The position numbers were made by a program, and so were the translations under genes. This document shows positions 5,637 to 26,090 of a stretch of DNA of 32,936 nucleotides, one piece after another. The DNA is taken from positions 1 through 32,936 of the forward strand of contig CANBTZ010000006.1 in the NCBI GenBank assembly GCA_947372495.1. Direction: 5' to 3'. Every line of letters starts with the position of its first letter. The stretch's first letter is position 1. The notes below the pieces were generated by a model. That model searched no databases. It was not told where the DNA came from and saw only the letters and a program-made list of their open reading frames with translations. The stretch comes from Comamonadaceae bacterium. Its GTDB lineage: Bacteria > Pseudomonadota > Gammaproteobacteria > Burkholderiales > Burkholderiaceae_C.

Positions 5637-7175
5637 ATGAAACCGAGTCTGTCGCTGCGCATGTCCCAGCACCTGGCGCTCACGCCCCAGCTGCAACAAT
5701 CGATCCGCCTGCTGCAACTGTCCACTCTGGAGTTGTCGCAAGAAGTCGATCAGATGCTCGACGAAAACCCCTTCCTGGAGCGCGCGAGCGAAGAGGCGCC
5801 GATGGAAGACTACGGTCTCTCGCAAGCCGATGCCAAAGTCAGCTTGGGCGACCGCGTCAGCGAAAGCGCCAGCGACAACCACAGTGACGACAACGCCGAA
5901 CCCCGCGAAGAAGCACTGACCGATGTGGCCGAAAGCTGGGAAGGCGACGGCAGCGTCGAGATGCAGCCCGACGACAGCGAATGGGGTGGCGACGCTGGCT
6001 CGCGCCAAAACAACAGCAACGAAGAAGTGGCCGATGCGGTGGAGCTGGCCCGCAGTGCGGGCTCTTTGACCGACCACCTGCACCGCCAAGCCTTGTCGCT
6101 GCGCCTGTCCGAGATCGACCGGGCCGCCCTGCGTTTTTTGATCGAATCGGTCAACGACGACGGCTACCTCGAAGACAGCCTGGCCGAGCTGGCCGCGACC
6201 TTGGCTCCGGCCGACGACCTGGAGCAGATCGACGAACTGGTGCACCGCTTCACGGTGGCTTTGAGCTTGCTGCAATCGCTCGAGCCCGTGGGAGTGGGCG
6301 CACGCAACCTCAACGAGTGTCTGCAACTGCAACTGCGCGCACAGCTGCGCGACCAACCCACCAACGCCCTGGCGCAAGCAGCCCTCAAGGTGTGCGGGCA
6401 GCCGCTGGAGTTGACCGCCAAACGCGACTTCAAAAAACTTGCCCTGCTTTGCGGCGAAGACGAAACGCAGATCAAAGCCGCGCTGCAACACATCGCCCGG
6501 CTGGAGCCCAAACCGGGCCGCCCCTTTGTGCAGGCCGAGCGCAACATCATCATCCCCGACGTGATCGTCACCTCGGTCGGACGCGGCCCCAACCCCAAGT
6601 TCCGGGTGCAGCTCAACCCCGATGTGATGCCCAAGCTGCGGGTGCACGACATCTATGCCAACGCGCTGCGCGGCGGCAAGGGCGACAACCACGCGGGTCT
6701 GCAGCAGCGCCTGCAAGAGGCCCGCTGGTTCATCAAAAACATCCAGCAGCGCTTTGACACCATCTTGCGCGTATCCACCGCCATCGTCGAGCGGCAAAAG
6801 AACTTCTTGACGCACGGCGAGCTGGCCATGCGCCCGCTGGTGCTGCGCGAGATCGCCGACGAGCTGGGCATGCACGAGTCCACCATCAGCCGCGTGACCA
6901 CGGCCAAGTACATGAACACGCCGCAAGGCACGTTTGAACTGAAGTATTTCTTTGGCTCGGGCCTGGGCACCGACAGCGGCAACGCCGCGTCGAGCACCGC
7001 CGTGCGGGCGCTGATCAAACAATTCGTGGCCGCTGAGAACGCGGTCAAGCCCCTGTCCGACAACCAGATCTCCGAAATGCTCAAAGAGCAAGGCATCGAC
7101 TGCGCACGCCGCACGGTGGCCAAATACCGCGAAGCCCTGCGCATTGCTCCGGCGAACCTGCGCAAAACCATTTGA
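5637..7175 (+). CDS. rpoN: RNA polymerase sigma-54 factor RpoN
   Basis: Product of 512 aa. Region I is at the N-terminus (SLRMSQHLALTPQLQQSIRLL), rich in Gln and Leu, and contacts the AAA+ activator. Region II is an acidic linker (about 50-130). Then follow the core-binding domain, an HTH region near LREIADELGMHESTISRV and the diagnostic C-terminal RpoN box ARRTVAKYRE (490-499), which reads the -24 element. This sigma factor works only with AAA+ enhancer-binding proteins; one such activator is encoded in this window at 20891-22438, together with a matching promoter at 20765-20783. The ribosome-binding site is weak. Confidence 0.97.
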   Translation: MKPSLSLRMSQHLALTPQLQQSIRLLQLSTLELSQEVDQMLDENPFLERASEEAPMEDYGLSQADAKVSLGDRVSESASDNHSDDNAEPREEALTDVAESWEGDGSVEMQPDDSEWGGDAGSRQNNSNEEVADAVELARSAGSLTDHLHRQALSLRLSEIDRAALRFLIESVNDDGYLEDSLAELAATLAPADDLEQIDELVHRFTVALSLLQSLEPVGVGARNLNECLQLQLRAQLRDQPTNALAQAALKVCGQPLELTAKRDFKKLALLCGEDETQIKAALQHIARLEPKPGRPFVQAERNIIIPDVIVTSVGRGPNPKFRVQLNPDVMPKLRVHDIYANALRGGKGDNHAGLQQRLQEARWFIKNIQQRFDTILRVSTAIVERQKNFLTHGELAMRPLVLREIADELGMHESTISRVTTAKYMNTPQGTFELKYFFGSGLGTDSGNAASSTAVRALIKQFVAAENAVKPLSDNQISEMLKEQGIDCARRTVAKYREALRIAPANLRKTI

Positions 7176-17485: not shown

Positions 17486-18034
17486 ATGCGCCCCAACCCA
17501 CCTCCGACCATTCAGCCGCTGACCCCTGACTTTGAAGCCCCTCATTTCAGGCAGGCCTTGTCGCGCTTTGCCACGGGCGTGACCGTCATCACCACCTTCG
17601 CGCCAGATGCACAAAAAGGCGACTCGGCCAGCAGCAGCTTTGTGGGCATCACGGCCAGCTCGTTCAACTCGGTGTCGCTCACGCCGCCGCTCGTGCTGTG
17701 GAGCTTGGGGCACCGGGCCAGCAGCTTGCCGCTGTTCCATGCGGGCACGCACTATGTGGTCAATGTGCTGGCCGCAGACCAGCTCGACTTGTGCAATCGC
17801 TTTGCCTACGGCAAAGGCGACCGCTTTGCCGACACCGCCTACACCCTGGGGCAAGCCGGGTTACCCATTTTGAAAGGCGCTCTGGCCTGGTTTGAATGCC
17901 ACAACCGCAGCCGTCACGAAGAAGGCGACCATGTGATTTTTGTGGGCGAAGTGGAACGCTGCGGCTTCAGCGATGGCTCTGCCCCACTCGTTTACCAGGG
18001 CGGTCAGTTCAGCACCACCACGCCACTGCCATGA
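17486..18034 (+). CDS. Flavin reductase-like (FMN-binding split barrel) protein
   Basis: Product of 182 aa with the motifs of the HpaC/flavin reductase family: FRQALSRFATGVTVITT, VGITASSFNSVSLTPPLVLWSL, YVVNVLAADQ, GDHVIFVGEVE and LVYQGGQF. These enzymes use NAD(P)H to supply reduced FMN or FAD to a separate oxygenase. No HpaB-type oxygenase is adjacent; the atypical acyl-CoA-dehydrogenase-like flavoprotein at 14103-15383 in the divergent operon is a possible partner (inference). The ATG at 17486 is chosen over an upstream in-frame ATG at 17435, which would start inside the operator region. Its stop overlaps the marR-type gene start. Confidence 0.88.
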   Translation: MRPNPPPTIQPLTPDFEAPHFRQALSRFATGVTVITTFAPDAQKGDSASSSFVGITASSFNSVSLTPPLVLWSLGHRASSLPLFHAGTHYVVNVLAADQLDLCNRFAYGKGDRFADTAYTLGQAGLPILKGALAWFECHNRSRHEEGDHVIFVGEVERCGFSDGSAPLVYQGGQFSTTTPLP

Positions 18035-18480
18035 CCAACTCAGCAGGCTTTGTCGACGACTACCTGGCCTATTTGCTGGCACGCGCCAGCCATTTGATTT
18101 CGAGCGAATTCCATGCCGTGGTCGAGGCCAGTGGCCTGAGCCTGATGGAATGGCGCGTCATGGCCAGCTTGTCGGGCAAAGACAGCTTGAGCATCAACGA
18201 ACTCGCCAGCATCGTGCTGGCCAAACAGCCCACCGTGACCAAGTTGGTGGGCCGCATGCAAGACGCCGGGTGGGTCAAGCGTTGCGACGCCGCACACGAC
18301 AAACGGCAAAGCCTGGTGAGCCTCACGGCCGCAGGTCGGCGCAAAGTGCAACCCCTGCTGAAACAAGCCAAAGCGCACGAAGCGCAGGTAGTGTCAGCTT
18401 TGGGTGCGGACCCGGCGCATCAACTCAAGGTCATGCTGGAGAGCTTGATTGCGGCGCATGGAAGTGCGGGGGACGCCTGA
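18031..18480 (+). CDS. MarR-family transcriptional regulator
   Basis: Product of 149 aa. The winged-helix pattern is clear: LMEWRVMASLSGKDSLSINELASIVLAKQPTVTKLVGRMQ-type helix-turn-helix (about 45-85), then the wing region DAAHDKRQSLVSLTAAGR. MarR dimers usually repress divergent catabolic genes and release DNA when a phenolic or aromatic-type ligand binds. It overlaps the flavin reductase gene by 4 nt (ATGA). The divergent palindrome at 17451-17462 is the likely operator. Confidence 0.92.
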   Translation: MTNSAGFVDDYLAYLLARASHLISSEFHAVVEASGLSLMEWRVMASLSGKDSLSINELASIVLAKQPTVTKLVGRMQDAGWVKRCDAAHDKRQSLVSLTAAGRRKVQPLLKQAKAHEAQVVSALGADPAHQLKVMLESLIAAHGSAGDA

Positions 18481-18503
18481 GTCGCTTTCTGGGTTTTGAG
18501 TTT

Positions 18504-18524
18504 GCAACTTGGAGGTTGCTTTTT
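18504..18524 (+). terminator. Probable terminator after the MarR gene
   Basis: Stem GCAAC / GTTGC (5 bp, 6-nt loop TTGGAG), followed by TTTTT. It lies 23 nt after the stop codon. The stem is short, so efficiency is uncertain. Confidence 0.55.
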
Positions 18525-18777
18525 CCGTAGGCCGCTGTTGTGAGTTGCTTACGCGGCTGAGGCTTGTTGCGATCGGGTGACAGGACTGGTTTGCAGCGAA
18601 AGGCTTCTTTCACAGCAGGCTGCTTTAGGTGAAACTAATTTTTACTGAGCACCCTCTAGGCGATCCATGAGAATGTACTGCCGTACTCTCCTGACCAGTT
18701 TGATCTTACGGTTTACCCGCCTGCGCTTTGAGCGGAACAACGGAAAATTTAAAGCGACAACCAGAAAATTAAATTAT
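18525..18777. other. Gene-poor left edge of the accessory island
   Basis: About 250 nt where GC content falls. I see no convincing gene, tRNA or attachment repeat. A minus-strand open frame ending at 18642 would code a very basic peptide of about 40 residues (…RRVRQYILMDRLEGAQ) without a clear start or ribosome-binding site; it may be a decayed gene end. Confidence 0.4.
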
Positions 18778-19146
18778 TCATTTATTCTCAAGCTTCAAAT
18801 TGCCAACTAGTTGCGCATAGAAATCTGGCATTTCTTGCTCCTCGAACCCCCACGCTCCACACTCATTTCTGATGGAGTCCCACAACGACCAGCCCCCAAA
18901 AGCAACAACCGCTTGACCAATAATGCTCATGACTGCAGATATTGCCTTATCGGCATCAGGCTCTGCGTCCTCTTCATAAGCAAACAATACCGCGATAGGC
19001 AAACCCTCAGCAACAGCCATCACCTTCCCAAGGTAGCCCTCCGGCTCCATTGCACGCATTCTTTCATCGATCGTGTCTGCGATTTTTTTTAGGTTTAGCT
19101 CGAAGGGCAAGCATTCCAAACTTAGGGAAATGGCAATAGTTTTCAT
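18778..19146 (-). CDS. Hypothetical protein, third gene of the sigma-54-driven operon
   Basis: Product of 122 aa from the ATG at 19146, preceded by AAGAG at a workable distance; a second ATG two codons earlier (19152) is possible. The protein is acidic (segment AYEEDAEPDADKA) with one moderately hydrophobic stretch (about 77-92, AVMSIIGQAVVAFGG) and many aromatic residues near the end (WSLWD, WGFEEQEMPDFY). I do not recognise a family. It follows the previous gene by only 5 to 11 nt, so it is almost certainly co-transcribed with it and the predicted glycosylase gene. Its size and acidity would fit an inhibitor or antitoxin-like partner, but that is speculation. Confidence 0.7.
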   Translation of the reverse strand: MKTIAISLSLECLPFELNLKKIADTIDERMRAMEPEGYLGKVMAVAEGLPIAVLFAYEEDAEPDADKAISAVMSIIGQAVVAFGGWSLWDSIRNECGAWGFEEQEMPDFYAQLVGNLKLENK

Positions 19147-19157
19147 TTGCATAGCTC

Positions 19158-19679
19158 TTAAACTTCAAATTTATGGAATTTCCAATTGGCTCCAGATGGA
19201 ATCTCAACCACTTGCGAATCTCCATCAAAAGCGTTTTCAATTGAATAAATGTATCGTTTGATGGCGTCGACATTTGGCTTTGGCCCACCTTGGTAAATAT
19301 CCGGCATGGGCGGGAAGCTCCGATCAACGCCTTGAGCTTGTTTTCTTTTGAAATTGAACATCTCAAAAAATTTGTGCATCTTGTCCTGCTCGCGCTCATT
19401 TGGAAAAACAATTTTCACGTGCGTAGAGCTTTCATGGACGGCCTCAACGCCCTGAAATTCGGAGACTCCGATTTGCGTGCCGTTGTTCAGAATCCACTCA
19501 ATAATTTGCCTGTAGCAGCTCCATGGAAACAAATATTCAAGTTGCCAGTCATTGGACTTTCCGTCTTCTGACTTAAGAATAGCTTGGAGCATAAACAAGT
19601 CTGCAGCAAAGCTGAATTGCGCTGGCTTGCTCATTGAGTTTGGCGTCGTACGTCGGTTAAACATGTGTTTCACGTTCAC
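19158..19679 (-). CDS. Hypothetical protein, second gene of the sigma-54-driven operon
   Basis: Product of 173 aa from a GTG at 19679 that overlaps the upstream stop by 4 nt (GTGA); an ATG at 19664 would give 168 aa. The sequence has a compact alpha/beta look, with FSFAADLFMLQAILKSEDG, a Trp-rich helix (WSCYRQIIEWILNNG), a strand THVKIVFPNE and a Lys/Phe-rich helix KMHKFFEMFNFKRKQ, and ends in WKFHKFEV. No signal peptide or membrane segment is present. I do not recognise the family. Tight coupling to the predicted glycosylase gene suggests it works with that protein. Confidence 0.72.
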   Translation of the reverse strand: MNVKHMFNRRTTPNSMSKPAQFSFAADLFMLQAILKSEDGKSNDWQLEYLFPWSCYRQIIEWILNNGTQIGVSEFQGVEAVHESSTHVKIVFPNEREQDKMHKFFEMFNFKRKQAQGVDRSFPPMPDIYQGGPKPNVDAIKRYIYSIENAFDGDSQVVEIPSGANWKFHKFEV

Positions 19680-20734
19680 TCTGCCGCGTAGATGTTTCGA
19701 AAGTAGCCTTGGCTAGACCATCGACCAGGACTGTCTTTGGGATCCCAGCATGTTGTTCTGATTCTTGAACCCACGAGCGACTTTGCCTTCGCTGTGATTG
19801 ACCCATCAGGATCAAATGTCGAAGTTTTCATGTGGCGCTGGCTTCCGTCACCCATCACCAGTACCGTACAAGACGAGCCTCGTACCATTTCATTTTCTTT
19901 GATGGTCACAAGCGCATCTGGCGCGGACAACGTTGCCAAGCTTCTTTCGCGCTCAGCGGTTTCAGCCTCAGATTTGAAAGCCGCATGATCTTTAGCGGCT
20001 AGCTTTTTCAATGAGACGAGTTGAGCTGCAAGATCTTTGTTTCTTGCCTCGAGTTGTTCAGCTGTTGGCGGCGATTCCGTTTTGGTATCGATGTCATTCT
20101 TGGGCTCTATTGAATAGCGCCAAGCTACACCTCGCAACGACTTTGTTCGCCAAGATGCAGGGTGCATCCGACGAATGGTTTGAATTTCGGGGAAGTGATG
20201 TCGCATGGATGCCTCGACCAAGGACCGCAGCGGTGTGTTCAGTTCAAAGTCATTGCCTTTGGTGCAGCAGTTCATGACAACATCACCCGGCCTAAGCACC
20301 GATCGAAGTCTCGATACAAAATTTTCCTGCCCACCTTGTGCCCACACCGCCCTGAAGATTTTGTCGCGATGTTCAGAAGTACTGATGCCCAAGGAGCATT
20401 GATGTTGAATCGCATTGACCAGCATCAATCCGAAACCATCGACATCTTGAAGATTTATGGTTTCCTGCAGGAAATTGCGGATCATGTCTCCGGTAAACCC
20501 CTTGGCCGGACCTGGGTCGCTGATGAACTCATCAACGTGCGGCGACTCCAGAATCATGACCAAAATCGGTTGCCCGGTTCGCTGTTCTGCTGTTACCCGC
20601 AACGGAAATTTTGGCTTGCCAATAATTTCTGATAGCTGGCCAAGGTACTGGTCTGGGCAGGCACGCACATCAAACGAATACCCAGCCAGCGACACTGTAT
20701 TGCCGACAATTTGCTCAAAATTCAATTCTTTCAT
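19676..20734 (-). CDS. Predicted uracil-DNA-glycosylase-fold protein with coiled coil and C-terminal beta domain
   Basis: Product of 352 aa. Residues about 55-210 show the order of UDG-superfamily motifs. A hydrophobic strand leads into ESPHVDE (63-69; compare GQDPYH/GEAPG-type motif A). It is followed by PAKGFTGDMI (compare P-F-x-G-x-x-G), a strand ending in LVNAIQHQ (104-112), a strand GDVVMNCCTKG, and HPASW (191-195; compare motif B HPSP). Residues about 225-270 form a charged helical coiled-coil linker. Residues about 275-352 look beta-rich, ending in WSSQGYFRNIY. The catalytic assignment is tentative. The gene has a good TAGGAG ribosome-binding site and a sigma-54-type promoter (20765-20783), and is the first of three tightly packed genes. 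DNA repair, or attack on modified phage DNA, are possible roles. Confidence 0.6.
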   Translation of the reverse strand: MKELNFEQIVGNTVSLAGYSFDVRACPDQYLGQLSEIIGKPKFPLRVTAEQRTGQPILVMILESPHVDEFISDPGPAKGFTGDMIRNFLQETINLQDVDGFGLMLVNAIQHQCSLGISTSEHRDKIFRAVWAQGGQENFVSRLRSVLRPGDVVMNCCTKGNDFELNTPLRSLVEASMRHHFPEIQTIRRMHPASWRTKSLRGVAWRYSIEPKNDIDTKTESPPTAEQLEARNKDLAAQLVSLKKLAAKDHAAFKSEAETAERERSLATLSAPDALVTIKENEMVRGSSCTVLVMGDGSQRHMKTSTFDPDGSITAKAKSLVGSRIRTTCWDPKDSPGRWSSQGYFRNIYAAE

Positions 20735-20764
20735 TTGGATCTCCTAAGGATTGTTTCCTTAATA

Positions 20765-20783
20765 TTTGCGAGATCCATGCCAA
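20765..20783 (-). promoter_or_regulatory. Sigma-54 (-24/-12) promoter of the glycosylase-like operon
   Basis: On the minus strand the sequence TTGGCATGGATCTCGCAAA matches the consensus (C/T)TGGCACG-N4-TTGC(A/T) at all but two positions. The GG (20781-20780) and GC (20769-20768) dinucleotides are exactly 12 bp apart. The predicted transcription start is near 20756, 22 nt before the ATG. A short 5-bp hairpin (20746-20760) and the TAGGAG ribosome-binding site follow. The gene just upstream encodes a sigma-54 activator. Confidence 0.8.
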
Positions 20784-20845
20784 CTGCTCTGGATTTAAGA
20801 CGCCCATATAAATCAACCACTTAGATGACTCGAGCATCAGGGGCG

Positions 20846-20886
20846 TGCAAATTAATTTACTTTTAAATAAACCAGTTTACTTTGCA
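20846..20886 (-). promoter_or_regulatory. Candidate upstream activating sequence for the sigma-54 activator
   Basis: An inverted repeat, TGCAAA (20886-20881) and TTTGCA (20851-20846) on the minus strand, is centred about 110 bp upstream of the predicted start site. Between the arms are AT-rich GTAAA direct repeats and the palindrome AAATTAATTT. Position fits an enhancer for an AAA+ activator, but the arms are short and this could be chance. Confidence 0.3.
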
Positions 20887-20890
20887 GCAC

Positions 20891-22438
20891 TCAACTGAGC
20901 GTGAGATCAGAGTTCATGCCCAATCGTTTCATCCAATTGGTGAGGGTCTGATGATTGGCAAAGCCAAGCAGTTTCGCGGCGGCGGATTTACGTTGTCCCG
21001 ACTGCTGCAGAGCCTGTTTGATGAAACTGCGTGCCACTTCATCAAGCCGCTCTTGCAACTCAAAGCCGTCACTCAATACCTGGACATGATTTGGCACAGC
21101 AGTTCGCGCCACGGGAAGCATCGCCGCTTGAATGTCTTGCTCAGTGACATCTGGACCTGCAGACCAAATGACAGCGCGCAACAGCGTGTGATAGAGCTCG
21201 CGGACATTGCCGGGCCATGCGTGGGATTGCAAAAGTTTCAGTGCGGCAGGAGTAATGGTCTTATTCTGTGCTTCGGGCCGGCCTGCCGAATCTGCGTTAA
21301 TGCTTGCCAAAAAATGGAGCGTTAGCATTTCCAAATCACCCGTACGGTCCCGTAGCGGCGGCAACCGCAGAATGCCTACAGCTAGGCGGTGAAAGAGATC
21401 TTCCCTAAAGCGACCTGCAGCCACATCGGCTGCTAAATCACGGTGAGTTGCCGCCAGGATGCGCGTGTTTATTTTGATTGGCTTGGACTGCCCCATTGGG
21501 GTAATTTCATGCGACTGCAGCGCGCGTAGTAATCGGACCTGTGTATCCAGCGGTAAGTCGCCCACCTCGTCCAGAAAAAGCGTTCCACCAGAAGCTTCTA
21601 GAAAGTGTCCCTTTCTATCGGCAGTTGCACCAGTGAAGGCCCCTTTTTTATGGCCGAACAATTCAGAGTTTGCCAACTCTGGCGCAATGGCTCCGCAGTT
21701 CACCGCGACGAACGGCTGATTCGCCCTAGAGCTTGCTGCATGCATAGCCTCTGCAAACAACTCTTTGCCAGTACCAGTCTCCCCCAGAATCAGGACGGGC
21801 ACCTCGTACGCAGCAATTCGGCGAGCAAGGCTAATTTGGTTGGCAACCATTTGGCTTTGATGAATGATCTTGTCAAACTCAGGGGTTGAGAGTTGAACTG
21901 CATCAGTTAGTCGCCGGACCCGCTCACCGCTGCGTTGCAGATATTCGGGAAGGAAGTCGCTGGCCAAATCGAAGAAAAAATCAACAGACTCGACGCCTTT
22001 TTCTCTGGAGCTTTGGATCAACTTGGCTGGGAAACGCGTCTTCGACAGAATGATCCAGATGGCGGCCATTGCTGGTGTGCCGGGGCTCACATGGAAAGTG
22101 AGATCTACGTCATCTCTGGGCAATCCTGCTTGGTGAAGATTTGCACTGACCTCAGCGTAAATATCCGCATAGTTAATCGGACTGCTGAGATCAACCCTGT
22201 ACAGATCTGTAGCGCTAGCACTGTAGTTTGATTTTGACTCCAACCATTCGCAATATTTTTTGCTCCGATCAAAATCGTAGTTGGTTAATAAATAGATGCG
22301 GTCATATCGCGTTTCACCACATAAAGCCGTCGCAATTGGGCCAATATCAGACCCCCGTGTCAATTCCGAAGACTCGTGGTCTGCAGCACCAATCCACGAA
22401 ATAAACCAACGGCTTGTTTTTTGCACAGGTTTGATCAC
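20891..22438 (-). CDS. RtcR-like sigma-54-dependent activator with N-terminal CARF domain
   Basis: Product of 515 aa. Residues about 8-165 match the CARF sensor domain of RtcR: a Rossmann-like start (RWFISWIG), FHVSPGTPAMAAIW (115-128; RtcR has an equivalent H-x-x-x-G-T segment) and PAKLIQSS (137-144). The AAA+ domain (about 185-430) has Walker A GETGTGKE (219-226), the sigma-54-contacting loop GAFTGA (266-271), Walker B GGTLFLDE (284-291) and the arginine-finger region FREDLFHRL. A Fis-type HTH lies at about 482-505 (KSAAAKLLGFANHQTLTNWMKRLG). The GTG start overlaps the stop of the coiled-coil gene by 1 nt (TAGTG), implying coupling. CARF domains bind nucleotide ligands such as cyclic oligoadenylates or 2',3'-cyclic ends; the ligand here is unknown. 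The likely target is the promoter at 20765-20783. Confidence 0.88.
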   Translation of the reverse strand: MIKPVQKTSRWFISWIGAADHESSELTRGSDIGPIATALCGETRYDRIYLLTNYDFDRSKKYCEWLESKSNYSASATDLYRVDLSSPINYADIYAEVSANLHQAGLPRDDVDLTFHVSPGTPAMAAIWIILSKTRFPAKLIQSSREKGVESVDFFFDLASDFLPEYLQRSGERVRRLTDAVQLSTPEFDKIIHQSQMVANQISLARRIAAYEVPVLILGETGTGKELFAEAMHAASSRANQPFVAVNCGAIAPELANSELFGHKKGAFTGATADRKGHFLEASGGTLFLDEVGDLPLDTQVRLLRALQSHEITPMGQSKPIKINTRILAATHRDLAADVAAGRFREDLFHRLAVGILRLPPLRDRTGDLEMLTLHFLASINADSAGRPEAQNKTITPAALKLLQSHAWPGNVRELYHTLLRAVIWSAGPDVTEQDIQAAMLPVARTAVPNHVQVLSDGFELQERLDEVARSFIKQALQQSGQRKSAAAKLLGFANHQTLTNWMKRLGMNSDLTLS

Positions 22439-23622
22439 TATTTTTGCCAGAGATTCACGTAATTCGCCAACATCATCGTGTCAGCGGCCAAACGCATCTT
22501 CATATCCGGCCGATAGGTGAGGATGAAAACAGCTCTACGGCACTCAGCCTTGCAAGACATTAGATAGTCGTAAACCAATTGCACAAAGCCGTGATATCCG
22601 AAATCTGTCACGGTTTGCTTGTTGCCCGATCTGTCTAAGTAGGTCAGCGAAATTTTCGAACCGATTTGGCGTACATCATCAACTGTGGCCTCGATACCAA
22701 TGTTCATGTAATCAGAGCCTGTCCTTGATGGCCAAGGCTTGGTAATTTGCCTTGCCACCTCGAGCGAGAATTTCGGTGCCTCTCCTGAAGCTGAGCCCTC
22801 TCTAATTTTGGCAAGCGCTTGGGCCATTTGATTACGCTCATTGGTGACTTCAGCAAGGCGATTCACCACTTCCTGCTTTTCCTCCTTGGCCACGTCACGC
22901 GCACGTTCTGCCGCCTCTCTTGCTCGGAACTCTTCTTCCCATTGATCCTCGGCTGCATTCTTTTCCTGCTGTGCATTCAAACGATGACGCTCAGCCTCTT
23001 CTTTGGCTTGTGTTGCTTTATCTTTTTCTGCCTTAGCTAAATCTCGTTCGCGCTCAGCTAGAGCCCTAGCCTCGAACTCTTCATGTCTCTGCCGTTCTGC
23101 GGCATCCTTGGCCTCAAGAACGGGCTTCATCATCCATTCATTAATATGACTCGCTAAATCGTTATGGTCACGGATGGTCCCAGCCATCAACAAAGGATGA
23201 AGCGTTTTAGCGATGTACTCAGGGCTCAACCAAGTCCGATCATCCTTCTTTCTTTCCTTTTTCAAGTAGTCCGTCAAATTTGCCTCGGATCTGGCACTAC
23301 TTCGATCAGGAGGTAATAACGTAAATATCGGAGGATCTTGGAAATCTTGATCAGGCTCGACCGTGACTAGCCGCCAACGCCCAGGCAACCTCTCTTCCCC
23401 AAACTCACTTAACCAAACATTCGCGAGGATGTGATAGTTGCCAGCATCGCGCTGGCCTTTGGTCTGCTGAGCGGTACCATCATCATCGATCTCAATTTCA
23501 TCCAAAAATACTTTATTTCCCTTTGGAATAATTCCAGTTCGCAAAGGAATAGTTTCATCTTTCGCGTGCGGAGTCAGGTGATAGCGATGTCTTTTCATTT
23601 TTGGTTGACTCGTCTCAGACAT
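22438..23622 (-). CDS. Coiled-coil protein of unknown function, coupled to the CARF activator
   Basis: Product of 394 aa. Residues about 25-110 form a predicted beta-rich globular domain (FLDEIEIDDDGT, GRWRLVTVEP), and 110-165 is helical. Residues about 167-275 form a long, highly charged Ala/Glu/Lys/Arg coiled coil. It contains an internal duplication: EEFEARALAERERDLAKAEK at 181-200 and EEFRAREAAERARDVAKEEK at 230-249. Residues about 285-394 are a second globular domain (SKISLTYLDRSGNKQTVTDFG, FILTYRPDMKM). No catalytic motif, signal peptide or transmembrane segment is seen. I do not recognise the family. The 1-nt overlap with the activator gene suggests that this protein acts in the same sensing pathway, perhaps as sensor, inhibitor or scaffold. 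Confidence 0.75.
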   Translation of the reverse strand: MSETSQPKMKRHRYHLTPHAKDETIPLRTGIIPKGNKVFLDEIEIDDDGTAQQTKGQRDAGNYHILANVWLSEFGEERLPGRWRLVTVEPDQDFQDPPIFTLLPPDRSSARSEANLTDYLKKERKKDDRTWLSPEYIAKTLHPLLMAGTIRDHNDLASHINEWMMKPVLEAKDAAERQRHEEFEARALAERERDLAKAEKDKATQAKEEAERHRLNAQQEKNAAEDQWEEEFRAREAAERARDVAKEEKQEVVNRLAEVTNERNQMAQALAKIREGSASGEAPKFSLEVARQITKPWPSRTGSDYMNIGIEATVDDVRQIGSKISLTYLDRSGNKQTVTDFGYHGFVQLVYDYLMSCKAECRRAVFILTYRPDMKMRLAADTMMLANYVNLWQK

Positions 23623-23921
23623 TAATTACTCATCGATTTGAGTGTAATTTGGTTGAGGGGAAAAACAGGCAAAACTAGCCCAGTACCCAACGTGATTTTC
23701 GAGTTACCAAGCTCATGCAATCAGTTCCAGAAAAAAAGTGTGCGTCGCGTTTGCAGCGGTTGCAGTCCTTCACTCCTGCTTCACCATGGGCCGCTCTTCG
23801 GTGGACAGGTGTCGCTGAGCGCTCAAGAGGCGCAGATTAAAGTCCGTCGGTGCCGTGTGGTGATCAGGACCGCCTCAGCGCCAGCGTGTCAAGATAACCC
23901 TACGCAGGCGGCAGGCGGACC
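23623..23921. other. Intergenic stretch between the coiled-coil gene and the DUF262 gene
   Basis: About 300 nt without a convincing gene. Composition changes from AT-rich next to the coiled-coil gene start to GC-rich near the DUF262 gene end, so it may be a junction between two separately acquired segments. A minus-strand TACACT box about 30 nt before the coiled-coil gene could be a -10 element, but no -35 at proper spacing is clear. Short open frames here have no start-site support. Confidence 0.4.
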
Positions 23922-25493
23922 TCAGATCGCTGCGGTCTTGATGAGCTTTCGCGCAGCCTCCACCAACAGCTCTGCGCGCATCTTGATGAAGTCAGCGTAG
24001 TTCATGGAGCCGTCCATCGCAGCAACAGGAAGCAGCGACGAAGCAGCAATCGAGGCGCGAAGCGCGGCGTCGATTTTGGGCATGTAGTCTGCGGGTGAGG
24101 AGTCACTGATCGAGCGGTTGTCGGCCTGACTGAGGAAGCAGACGTTGGCGATGATGTTGGACTCGCTGAACTTGATACCCTGAGAGTTCAGGAATGCCTT
24201 GGGGTAGACGTGGTGGAACTCGCGCGCGTTGTATGCGGACATGGCCGTGCTCAGGTCCACCAGACTGTTCGACAGGAAACTGCGTGGGGCGCACTGCGCG
24301 AGGAGACAAATGGTGGCCTTAGCTGCGGTCGAATTGATACGCCAAGTCTTCATGAAAAGGCTGGGCGGAACTTCAGCATTGAATGAGTCGAACACCGGCT
24401 TCCCATTCGCCAGAGCATGCATCGATTCAATGTCTTCCATGACAGCGACATTGGTACCCGCCTTATAGCGCTGAGTGAAAGAAACAAACCAGAACCATCG
24501 CTTGAGCCCAGTCATCTGCGCTGCGTTCGGCTTCAGCGTCAGTGAGAAGAACTTCACAAGCGGTACGAACATGATTGGGAATGGGATGAAGACGACGTTC
24601 TTGATGTGCAGTTCCTTCTCCAGGAAATCAACGGTGGCGTAGATCGCCTGCTTCAAGCGCAGCATTCCGTCGATCAAATTCTCTGGCGGCGTGTCCACTA
24701 ACGCATCGGCGTCGATCCTGTTCAGCACCACAGCCGCGAGGCTGCGCATGAGCAGCCCCTCATCAAGTTGGTCGTACCCCTTGTCCGACAGCTTGTCGAG
24801 AACCCCCTCGATTTCCTTCCTAAGATCAAACTGATCCGACCACGTCCAGGCCGCGAGCAGTTCGAGAGTGCTGAGGCTCGTCCCTGACGAGTTAATGCGC
24901 TGAAATACCCGACAGACCTCTTGGTTGGTGCGATCCCTGATTGTGACGACAGGGAATTCGTAGTCCTTGAAGCGCTCGGTAAGATTTGCGATCACCGTTT
25001 TCTTCTCGTCGTCGAAGCGCGTCATCTCGGGAAGTAGCTTCGTCGTATCGAGGATGACACGAAGGTTGATCGAGGTTTTCGGATCAGCCTCAGCGTAATG
25101 GATGAACTCCTCGGTGGAAGGTACGAAGCACACGTTGAACCGGTCGGCAAGCTCCGGATCAGAAGTCTTGGCGTCCGAGTTGAAGACGCCGTATAGGGTT
25201 GTCAGGCGCTGCTGGCCGTCGAGGACATAGTTGACCGGATAGTCCTCCGGCGTCTTCGGCAGTTCGAAGCCACCTACGTTGCGTTCATGCGTGAGCGCCT
25301 CCTTGGTGGACCAAAGTAGCAACGAACCGACCGGAAAACCGCGGTAGATCGAGTCGAGCAAACTCATGATCTGCTCGTCATCCCAAACATACTCACGCTG
25401 GAAGACGGGAATCTTGATGTTCCCCTTCGCTACGTCCGTGAGCAGCGACGAGAGTCGCGGGTTTGATGGTGTGATCTTGTGAGCTCCCGCCAT
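23922..25493 (-). CDS. DUF262/DUF1524 (GmrSD-like) protein, putative type IV restriction or defence nuclease
   Basis: Product of 523 aa. The N-terminal DUF262 (ParB/Srx-like) domain has IKIPVFQREYVWDDEQIMSLLDSI and the NTPase signature DGQQRLTT (92-99), then RVFQRINSSGTSLS. The C-terminal half has a degenerate HNH-type (DUF1524) core with FHHVYPKAF (426-434), NIIANVCFLS and DNRSISDSSPADY. In GmrSD, SspE and related proteins these domains couple nucleotide hydrolysis to DNA nicking of modified or phage DNA. Here both domains are in one chain, and no Ssp or BREX partner gene is adjacent. AAAGG lies 7 nt before the ATG. It is separated from the coiled-coil gene by about 300 nt. Confidence 0.85.
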   Translation of the reverse strand: MAGAHKITPSNPRLSSLLTDVAKGNIKIPVFQREYVWDDEQIMSLLDSIYRGFPVGSLLLWSTKEALTHERNVGGFELPKTPEDYPVNYVLDGQQRLTTLYGVFNSDAKTSDPELADRFNVCFVPSTEEFIHYAEADPKTSINLRVILDTTKLLPEMTRFDDEKKTVIANLTERFKDYEFPVVTIRDRTNQEVCRVFQRINSSGTSLSTLELLAAWTWSDQFDLRKEIEGVLDKLSDKGYDQLDEGLLMRSLAAVVLNRIDADALVDTPPENLIDGMLRLKQAIYATVDFLEKELHIKNVVFIPFPIMFVPLVKFFSLTLKPNAAQMTGLKRWFWFVSFTQRYKAGTNVAVMEDIESMHALANGKPVFDSFNAEVPPSLFMKTWRINSTAAKATICLLAQCAPRSFLSNSLVDLSTAMSAYNAREFHHVYPKAFLNSQGIKFSESNIIANVCFLSQADNRSISDSSPADYMPKIDAALRASIAASSLLPVAAMDGSMNYADFIKMRAELLVEAARKLIKTAAI

Positions 25494-25694
25494 AGATGTA
25501 CCTTTATGTGATATTTATTCGCTCATATTAAACCAAAAGAATCCGTACAAAAGAAGAAGTAAGCTGCCCAACCTTGAAGTGGCGACCGTTCTACGTGGAA
25601 GTGGCCATTTACCCGTTGAGCACGAACGTCCGCTATCAGCCTAAATGCCGATCGATCTAGGCCTTCTACAGCTTCTAACCAAGTCCTTTTTCGT
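25494..25694. other. Right edge of the accessory island
   Basis: About 200 nt without a gene. The part next to the DUF262 start is AT-rich; on the minus strand TTGTAC and TAATAT lie 15 bp apart and could be a weak promoter for that gene. The rest is GC-richer and looks non-coding. No attachment-site repeat matching the left edge was found by eye. Confidence 0.4.
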
Positions 25695-26090
25695 TCACTC
25701 CGGCACCACCGCCGTCACCTCAATCTCCACCAAAGCCCGGTCCTCCACCAGATCAGCCACCTGCACCAGCGTCATGGCCGGATAGTTCTTGCCAATGACT
25801 TCCTGGTAGACCTTGCCCAGCTCCCTGCCACGGGCTAGGTATTCCTTCTTGTCTTTGACGTACCAGGTCATGCGGGCCATGTGCTGCGGGCCTGCGCCTG
25901 CGCAGGCCAGCGTGTCGACGATGTTTTGCAGGGCCTGGCGGCACTGGGCGACAAAGTCGTCGGTCTCGAACTGGGCTTGGCCGTTCCAGCCGATCATGCC
26001 CGCGACGAACACCATGCGGCCACGCGCTTCGATGCCGTTGGCATAGCCTTTGGCGGGTGCCCAGCCTTCGGGTTGCAAGACGTTGAACAT
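25695..26090 (-). CDS. Rid-family (YjgF/YER057c/UK114) protein without the catalytic Arg
   Basis: Product of 131 aa; the start at 26090 has AGGAG 7 nt upstream. The family pattern is clear (VFVAGMIGWNG, QALQNIVDTLACAGAG, ARMTWYVKD, VEIEVTAVV). The Arg of RidA that binds the substrate carboxylate (E. coli position 105, in FPARSCVEV) is replaced by Met106 in YPAMTLVQV, so classical 2-imino-acid deaminase activity is unlikely. It is the last gene of the 2-aminobenzoyl-CoA-type operon, 10 nt after the ligase gene, where it may handle an enamine or imine CoA intermediate or have another role (inference). Confidence 0.87.
   Translation of the reverse strand: MFNVLQPEGWAPAKGYANGIEARGRMVFVAGMIGWNGQAQFETDDFVAQCRQALQNIVDTLACAGAGPQHMARMTWYVKDKKEYLARGRELGKVYQEVIGKNYPAMTLVQVADLVEDRALVEIEVTAVVPE

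Follow-up and report, generated by a model that had tools for sequence, protein, structure and literature searches.

What does an RtcR-like activator control when the gene that follows it resembles a DNA glycosylase? The question is raised by a 32,936-nucleotide stretch of a Comamonadaceae bacterium genome (assembly GCA_947372495.1, contig CANBTZ010000006.1, positions 1-32,936; here called the window), in which five minus-strand genes at 18778-23622 encode a coiled-coil protein (CC), a sigma-54 activator with a CARF domain (R) and three further proteins (C, B and A), the first of which is similar in predicted fold to the uracil-DNA glycosylase (UDG) superfamily. We consider it probable that these genes form an infection-inducible, Brig-like glycosylase cassette directed against phage and governed by a known kind of CARF/sigma-54 regulator. 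This answer draws on computed features, namely gene order, promoter layout, the occurrence of regulators of this kind before defence genes, a UDG-like fold and motif order, purifying selection and mobile contexts.

The activator, its promoter and the cassette

Between 18778 and 25493 the minus strand carries, in order, a GmrSD_N protein, CC, R, a 156-nt gap, C, B and A. An earlier reading of the letters alone (the sequence-only reading) had described the five co-directional open reading frames from CC to A as lying in an AT-richer island, and coordinates and composition agree with that description. CC (22438-23622, minus strand) is a predicted coiled-coil protein of 394 aa, likely to act as a partner, whose stop codon overlaps the GTG with which R begins by a single base (TAGTG, seen in the sequence). 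R (20891-22438, minus strand, 515 aa) is followed by C (19676-20734, minus strand, 352 aa), which combines a UDG-superfamily-like domain (residues ~20-205), a coiled coil and a C-terminal Y domain, and then by B (19158-19679, minus strand, 173 aa; as listed, with a 4-nt overlap with the stop of C) and A (18778-19152, minus strand, 124 aa; 86-87% identical in three relatives). From CC to A the DNA looks foreign: GC content is 46.6-54.3% in 1-kb steps of 18001-24000 versus 56.5-66.6% outside 18001-26000, and GC at third codon positions (GC3) is 0.48-0.52 for the five genes versus 0.62-0.84 for most flanking frames. Purifying selection acts on all five genes, with pairwise ratios of nonsynonymous to synonymous substitution (dN/dS) of 0.07-0.26 against locus L007 and, for R, C, B and A, also against L005 (CC 0.07, R 0.11-0.12, C 0.15, B 0.07-0.08, A 0.19-0.26; L numbers denote compared loci). 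No Rfam family matched anywhere in the window at gathering thresholds.

R is a whole-protein match (residues 10-508, E 6.3e-186) to the PADLOC profile PDLC01995, RtcR_PspF2 CARF_AAA_HTH. This class, a Sigma54_activat domain (E 3e-66) and GAFTGA in the translation agree on the RtcR-like AAA+ activator with a CARF domain that had been proposed, and the RtcR_PspF2 class was also matched by 8/8 scanned relatives, L058 included, in a scan that left out L119-L123. R shares its architecture of CARF, AAA+ and helix-turn-helix (HTH) domains with the regulator of rsr-yrlBA-rtcBA, but differs in belonging to RtcR_PspF2, in preceding C-B-A and in scoring 341.7 bits, below the 650-bit cut-off of NCBIfam NF038308, the RtcR equivalog of the rtc operon. 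The absence of rtcA and rtcB, also claimed from the letters, stands for rtcB, which was not found in the 83%-complete genome; for rtcA it extends to a scan of six window proteins, none of which matched RtcA or RtcB, with no genome-wide search for rtcA. RpoN is encoded ~14 kb from R, where a 527-aa open frame carries a sigma-54 DNA-binding domain (window 6699-7166).

The module proposed in the sequence-only reading hinged on conserved synteny, and this is what the comparison returned. With near-copies counted once, C occurs in nine loci, the window and eight others whose C is 57-79% identical to that of the window: L004 (MOLA814), L005 (Limnohabitans sp. 15K), L006, L007, L008, L017/L019 and L020 (viral contigs), and L018. 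(L021 is L004 again; L046, L047, L048 and L059-L062 repeat viral-contig loci.) In 8/8 testable loci the gene immediately before C, in the same orientation, is R, L018 standing outside this count as it ends at C, and a promoter-like element accompanies the pair at a fixed distance from C.

In the 5' to 3' direction of the minus strand, the gap between R and C contains two palindromic sites, an integration host factor (IHF) consensus, TTGGCATGGATCTCGCA and the ATG of C. Candidate activator site 2 (20847-20860, unstranded) has 1 mismatch to GTAAATNNATTTAC and is the sole window site with <=2 mismatches; candidate site 1 (20867-20880, unstranded) is palindromic, has 3 mismatches to GTAAATNNATTTAC and starts 20 bp from site 2. 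A candidate IHF site at 20811-20823 on the plus strand is an exact match to AATCAACCACTTA (WATCAANNNNTTR), which we take to be the IHF consensus throughout. The -24/-12 sigma-54 promoter-like element TTGGCATGGATCTCGCA (GG-N10-GC; 20767-20783, minus strand) lies 32 nt before the start codon of C. Neither strand of the window has another strict match to YTGGCANGNNNNTYGCW; under a softer score, 5/664 same-length stretches elsewhere in the window do equally well. A GAFTGA loop, a -24/-12-like element and an RpoN gene, the features of a sigma-54 unit, are all present.

The layout recurs across the C loci. A palindromic candidate site (<=2 mismatches) is found in the gap of 8/8 C loci, and the IHF consensus is exact in 7/8 gaps (the exception being L007), between the activator sites and the promoter, and also in L050. 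The -24/-12-like element, noticed in the letters and confirmed in the window as a sequence, ends 31-32 nt before the start codon of C in 8/8 loci (the L008 start codon was placed by homology). Beyond the C loci, such an element follows R in 18/18 loci with a same-strand cassette (softer score) and in 5/5 loci found after the pattern was set, 23/23 in total; these counts omit L017, a near-copy of L019, and L058, whose R has no same-strand cassette after it. The five later elements start between 1 nt before and 83 nt after the end of R, and 1, 1, 1, 2 and 3 same-strand sites there reach the element's score. Same-length stretches scoring as high number 0-3 of 564-936 in eight restriction-modification (R-M) loci and L051, and 0/350 in L004, 0/350 in L005, 1/72 in L006, 4/348 in L007 and 2/346 in L020. 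The same order of upstream activating sequence, IHF site and -24/-12 promoter is described for rtcBA (PMC9650030).

These data bear on the possibility that R and C-B-A came together by chance co-insertion and that R acts elsewhere. L058, whose R belongs to the same PADLOC class and lacks a same-strand cassette downstream, fits such independence. With R adjacent to C in every testable locus, a promoter-to-ATG spacing held to within one nucleotide, conserved candidate activator sites and an element in each of the later-found loci, however, we regard chance association as very improbable.

Relatives of R precede other cassettes. They were collected by following R with its CARF domain into plasmids (5/6 records, an unannotated Vibrio record being left out), into the order (5/18 non-own CARF matches with E <= 1e-8) and into the class (5/8 with E <= 1e-12), the strongest being chosen; L009 was found by a separate search. 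Type I R-M genes lie downstream of R in 11 loci (L009, L049, L052-L057, L119, L120, L122) and TerY-P-like genes (VWA/PP2C/kinase-type) in four (L050, L051, L121, L123), and the R proteins of both groups are 40-69% identical to that of the window. Pfam confirms HsdR or HsdM in 8/11 R-M loci, a VWA domain in L121 and a kinase domain in L123; the outputs of L049, L052, L053, L050 and L051 rest on record annotation, and the hsd genes of L053 look broken. In a midpoint-rooted tree of 19 R proteins, in which L058 forms a long branch, the C-linked R fall on one side of a branch with support 100/99, and their nearest neighbours are the R-M-linked L009 and L049, then the TerY-P-linked L050. Because the CARF and AAA+ domains are more conserved than the HTH (69% and 75% versus 50% in L009), we read the related R proteins, from their sequences, as sharing a sensor and motor and as having exchanged operators and outputs. 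A small DUF4258-annotated gene was also observed in L050 (9751-10086), between R and the TerY-P-like genes, with similar genes recognizable by eye in L121 and L123; BrnT-like genes are reported in CoCoNuT/TerY-P-type loci (PMC11090510).

Protein C and its coiled-coil partners

Is C a glycosylase? A 12-row alignment (A1, window protein included) keeps LESPHxxEF, PAxGxxG, N107, R123-D124, W131, D151, NxCT and HP191-192, and the UDG-type motifs (motif-1 Glu E63, Asn N107 and H191-P192) are invariant in all 12 rows; the distant relative L064 has lost H191. In an AlphaFold2 model of C, the block means of the predicted local distance difference test (pLDDT) are 68-93 over residues 21-200, bar one block at 52; the C-terminal Y domain falls below 50 and was left uninterpreted. 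A Foldseek search of the PDB with this model gave 599 matches with E <= 10, and among the 50 best, which were considered, UDGs occupy ranks 1-5, 7, 8 and 10, ranks 6 and 9 being unrelated proteins. Match probabilities are 0.98 for UdgX, 0.97 for the family-4 UDG of S. tokodaii (4zby), 0.80 for Tth UDG and 0.35 for SMUG1. A search of viral structures placed a phage DNA polymerase first (E 6.1e-3), a match that was not used, followed by UDG-like and DUF1643 proteins at E 2.1e-2 each; none fell below 0.001.

In a profile-profile alignment by hhalign, C is colinear with the family-4-type UDGs that related genomes encode: their GEAPGxxE falls on LESPHxxEF, their NxxKC Asn on N107 and their HP on HP191. 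In our own equation, the NxxKC Asn and the PFVG Phe correspond to N82 and the stacking F55 of S. tokodaii UDG, residues named in PMC11078745. C thus resembles family-4 UDG and UdgX in fold and motif order, and differs from them in three ways: LESPHxxEF takes the place of GEAPGxxE, the PFVG Phe has become Ala, and there is no PF03167 match, which none of the 12 A1 members gave in Pfam. The predicted fold and the motif order support C as a divergent member of the UDG superfamily at fold level, with weak profile-profile support; the UDG call of the sequence-only reading survives in this form.

Six more distant relatives of C, 30-41% identical, were found (L023-L026, L063, L064), one of which (L024) has its C-like gene in two pieces. 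LESPHxxEF proteins among them (L063 5911-6741, L064 232-843, L023, L025, L026) come from plasmids, another genome of the family and viral contigs, and by their sequences they may represent a wider UDG-like family without a Pfam model. After the C-like gene of L063 comes a protein that PADLOC matches to BnzB.

Coiled-coil proteins adjoin R or C in many of these loci. CC itself has an 83% identical relative at the same place in L007 and weak similarity (25-27%, E 1e-4 to 2e-3) to proteins of an X-coiled coil-Y layout that stand beside R or C elsewhere. An X-coiled coil-Y or CC-type protein adjoins R or C in 7/9 C loci. Its position takes one of three forms: it precedes R in the same orientation (window, L007, L008), is divergent (L005, L017/L019, L020) or, for X-coiled coil-Y, comes just after C (L004, L020). 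Where C consists of the UDG part only (L004, L020), the next gene encodes an X-coiled coil-Y protein, and the long C carries its own coiled coil-Y part, 51-61% identical to these proteins. This pattern of fusion and fission in the sequences argues that enzyme and scaffold may act together. The X-coiled coil-Y family (L004 10342-11352, L005 6828-7856, L020, L022 7115-8074) has its Y domain in common with the C-terminus of C; the L022 copy, from a genome of the same genus, has neither R nor C nearby, and neither this protein nor CC found a match in plasmids.

Three relatives of B are 92-97% identical to it, and a fourth is 70% identical. Since B and A are present in only 5/9 and 4/9 C loci (L006 ends soon after C), they look like accessories. 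Structure prediction, which the sequence-only reading had proposed, led to UDGs as the best matches of C; for B it gave a confident model (pLDDT 82) and no fold match with E <= 0.001, the best being E 0.44.

A UDG-like fold may also serve another action, with C either attacking the DNA or RNA of the host as an abortive effector or serving as a nucleic-acid sensor that works with CC, B and A. Motif 1 reads LESPH instead of GEAPG, the PFVG Phe is replaced by Ala, the enzyme seems tied to a scaffold, adjoining X-coiled coil-Y when UDG-only and carrying a coiled coil-Y when long, and tight inducible control would suit a toxic effector. On the other hand, the motif-1 Glu, the base-binding Asn and HP are kept in every row of A1, as expected of an active glycosylase, and we judge this alternative rather unlikely.

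Defence or repair

The sequence-only reading had left the locus as a candidate for either defence or repair. Because related R proteins precede type I R-M and TerY-P-like genes, defence is favoured by analogy and repair is less so. A stress-induced repair operon of host or prophage would have R sense damage-linked RNA fragments and C start base-excision repair. UDGs are classical repair enzymes, and genotoxic stress induces RtcR through an SOS/prophage route (PMC9879122). Yet a search of this genome for the UDG family (PF03167) gave 3 matches above the cut-off, so that such enzymes are already present, and the related R proteins precede restriction and kinase-type cassettes. C is moreover rare, unlike core repair: a match was found in 5/399 genomes of the family, Y-domain-only and distant ones counted, a C profile run on 369 genomes of the class matched in its own genome only, and several loci place C beside prophage or integrase genes. 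Overall, we hold the repair operon to be unlikely.

For the probable anti-phage cassette we propose the following scheme, in which we infer what ligand R binds, that transcription depends on RpoN, that C is an active glycosylase and on which substrate, that phage are kept off, and what CC, B and A do. Without infection, the CARF domain of R would keep the AAA+ motor off, as it is reported to do in RtcR (PMC9650030). On infection or nucleic-acid damage a ligand would bind CARF, by analogy with RtcR perhaps a 2',3'-cyclic-phosphate RNA end such as that of a cleaved tRNA. RtcR is reportedly activated by cyclic-phosphate tRNA fragments (PMC7790460), cyclic oligoadenylates did not activate E. coli RtcR, whose ligand is described as not settled (PMC9650030), and in Salmonella the RtcR signal is reported to depend on a prophage (PMC9879122). 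R would then assemble on the palindromic sites ~65-100 bp upstream of the -24 element, IHF would bend the DNA between these sites and the promoter, and R would drive RpoN polymerase to transcribe C-B-A. The base that C would excise is most plausibly uracil or a modified base in phage DNA, and the abasic sites left would keep the phage from replicating. Targeting or oligomerising the enzyme is the probable role both of the part of C formed by its coiled coil and Y domain and of the X-coiled coil-Y/Z partner, which in the window is CC, with B and A as putative accessories. Speculatively, the translationally coupled CC could serve as a co-regulator where RtcB is absent. The output would most resemble that of Brig1 and Brig3, which belong to the UDG superfamily, strip modified bases from phage DNA and provide a precedent for such immunity (PMC11078745, PMC13160076). 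A more specific idea, which we hold tentatively as possible rather than probable, is that the UDG-fold family with LESPHxxEF represents an RNA-damage-triggered, sometimes prophage-carried glycosylase immunity. A CARF sensor would read the cleavage of tRNA or other RNA in infected cells and, by way of sigma-54, turn on base excision in phage DNA, this being one of several exchangeable outputs of a regulator that in other loci precedes restriction or kinase systems.

Several points weigh against the anti-phage reading. On the regulatory side, no R was found near the distant C relatives that could be judged (L023, L024, L026, L063; L025 and L064 end just upstream of C), and the promoter score is unexceptional in L050 (46/254), L019 (11/238) and L008 (7/206 as good). 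The IHF consensus also occurs ~100 bp upstream of R (L004, L006) and inside R (L009, L049, L052, L053, L054), and because of these further matches in seven loci it is weak evidence alone. E. coli RtcR is reported to need RtcA and RtcB as well (PMC9650030), and no rtcB was found here. On the side of the proteins, searching Pfam, NCBIfam, PADLOC and PHROGs with C, B, A and CC yielded no match of use, and a search of solved-structure sequences with a C profile gave one meaningless match (E 2.1) and no relative. Around 40% of the C model lies under pLDDT 50, and its Foldseek matches to UDGs have E-values of 1.9e-3 to 6.2e-2, none below 0.001, and low template modelling (TM) scores. The hhalign comparison has E 0.033 and a probability of 1.5%, 1/59 column shuffles reaching the real score or more. 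In the same alignment the family-4 PFVG Phe falls on Ala77 of C, and the base pocket may therefore differ or be larger.

The surroundings of the cassette are mobile in several loci. In L005 and in the related viral contigs L017/L046 and L019/L047 it comes shortly after an endolysin gene of phage type (PHROGs phrog_7), which in L005 is itself preceded at some distance by a tail-fibre or virion-type gene; in L048 it is near a serine-integrase-type gene and two excisionase-like genes. Neither C nor the CARF domain had a match in phage records. In the window the cassette is presumably flanked by a MarR-type gene on one side and a Rid/CoA-ligase pair on the other. Both flanks stand on one contig in at least 27/60 genomes of the genus, in rows read by eye with weak rows left out; the distance between the flanks is <0.2 kb in 9 of these and 1.0-9.2 kb in 18. 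Across the genus the site (18480-25695 in the window) was seen to hold from ~15 bp to 9.2 kb, and several genomes have partial repeats of the 3' end of the MarR gene there; no convincing repeats flank the island. Eleven filled sites and one empty site were examined, and four filled sites (7 proteins) were scanned with PADLOC: L103 carries an AriA/GajA-like ATPase and WYL, L105 AAA plus a PD-Lambda-5_B methylase and L106 DEDDh/PDC-S48, and the single protein of L107 had no PADLOC match. Of the seven other filled sites, outside the PADLOC scan, several look metabolic by their first residues. With such mixed cargo, defence-like in 3/4 scanned sites and metabolic-looking in others, we regard the site as variable and do not call it a defence hotspot. 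The GmrSD_N protein directly upstream of the cassette (23922-25493) matches PADLOC PDC-M55C (E 6.8e-71) and has a GC3 of 0.74, unlike the cassette; no relative of it was found in the other C loci searched.

Relation to known systems

The sequence-only reading could not name this pairing of regulator and operon, but the kind of pairing is already published: RtcR-like CARF activators were reported beside R-M in 2014 (PMC4012209) and beside CoCoNuT/TerY-P/R-M superoperons in 2024 (PMC11090510). In those loci, too, a regulator of this architecture immediately precedes a defence cassette in the same orientation; the window cassette differs in consisting of a UDG-like C with B and A. Among six window proteins scanned there was no McrB-type GTPase, coiled-coil nuclease, Hsd protein or kinase, so that what defines a CoCoNuT is lacking from these proteins, and the words glycosylase, UDG and Brig1 are absent from the main text of PMC11090510.

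Compared by description and not by sequence, C and the Brig1 and Brig3 proteins are alike as members of the UDG superfamily in defence-type surroundings, and S. tokodaii UDG is both the best structural match reported for Brig1 (PMC11078745) and the second for C (4zby). They differ in that C has a coiled coil and Y domain and a CARF/sigma-54 regulator, the latter unmentioned for Brig in the sources cited. A figure legend of DefensePredictor (PMC13092281) names a UDG, which is neither matched to the C family nor excluded from it. The regulator architecture and glycosylase immunity have each been published; their combination we did not find reported in the open-licence literature.

Glycosylase immunity is recent (Brig1 in 2024, Brig3 in 2026), and in the cited accounts we found no transcriptional trigger described for it. 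If the anti-phage reading is true, a single CARF/sigma-54 alarm would have base excision among its outputs besides restriction and CoCoNuT, and its compact promoter would lend itself to laboratory tests. Sister regulators with different outputs, when compared, could then help to identify the CARF ligand.

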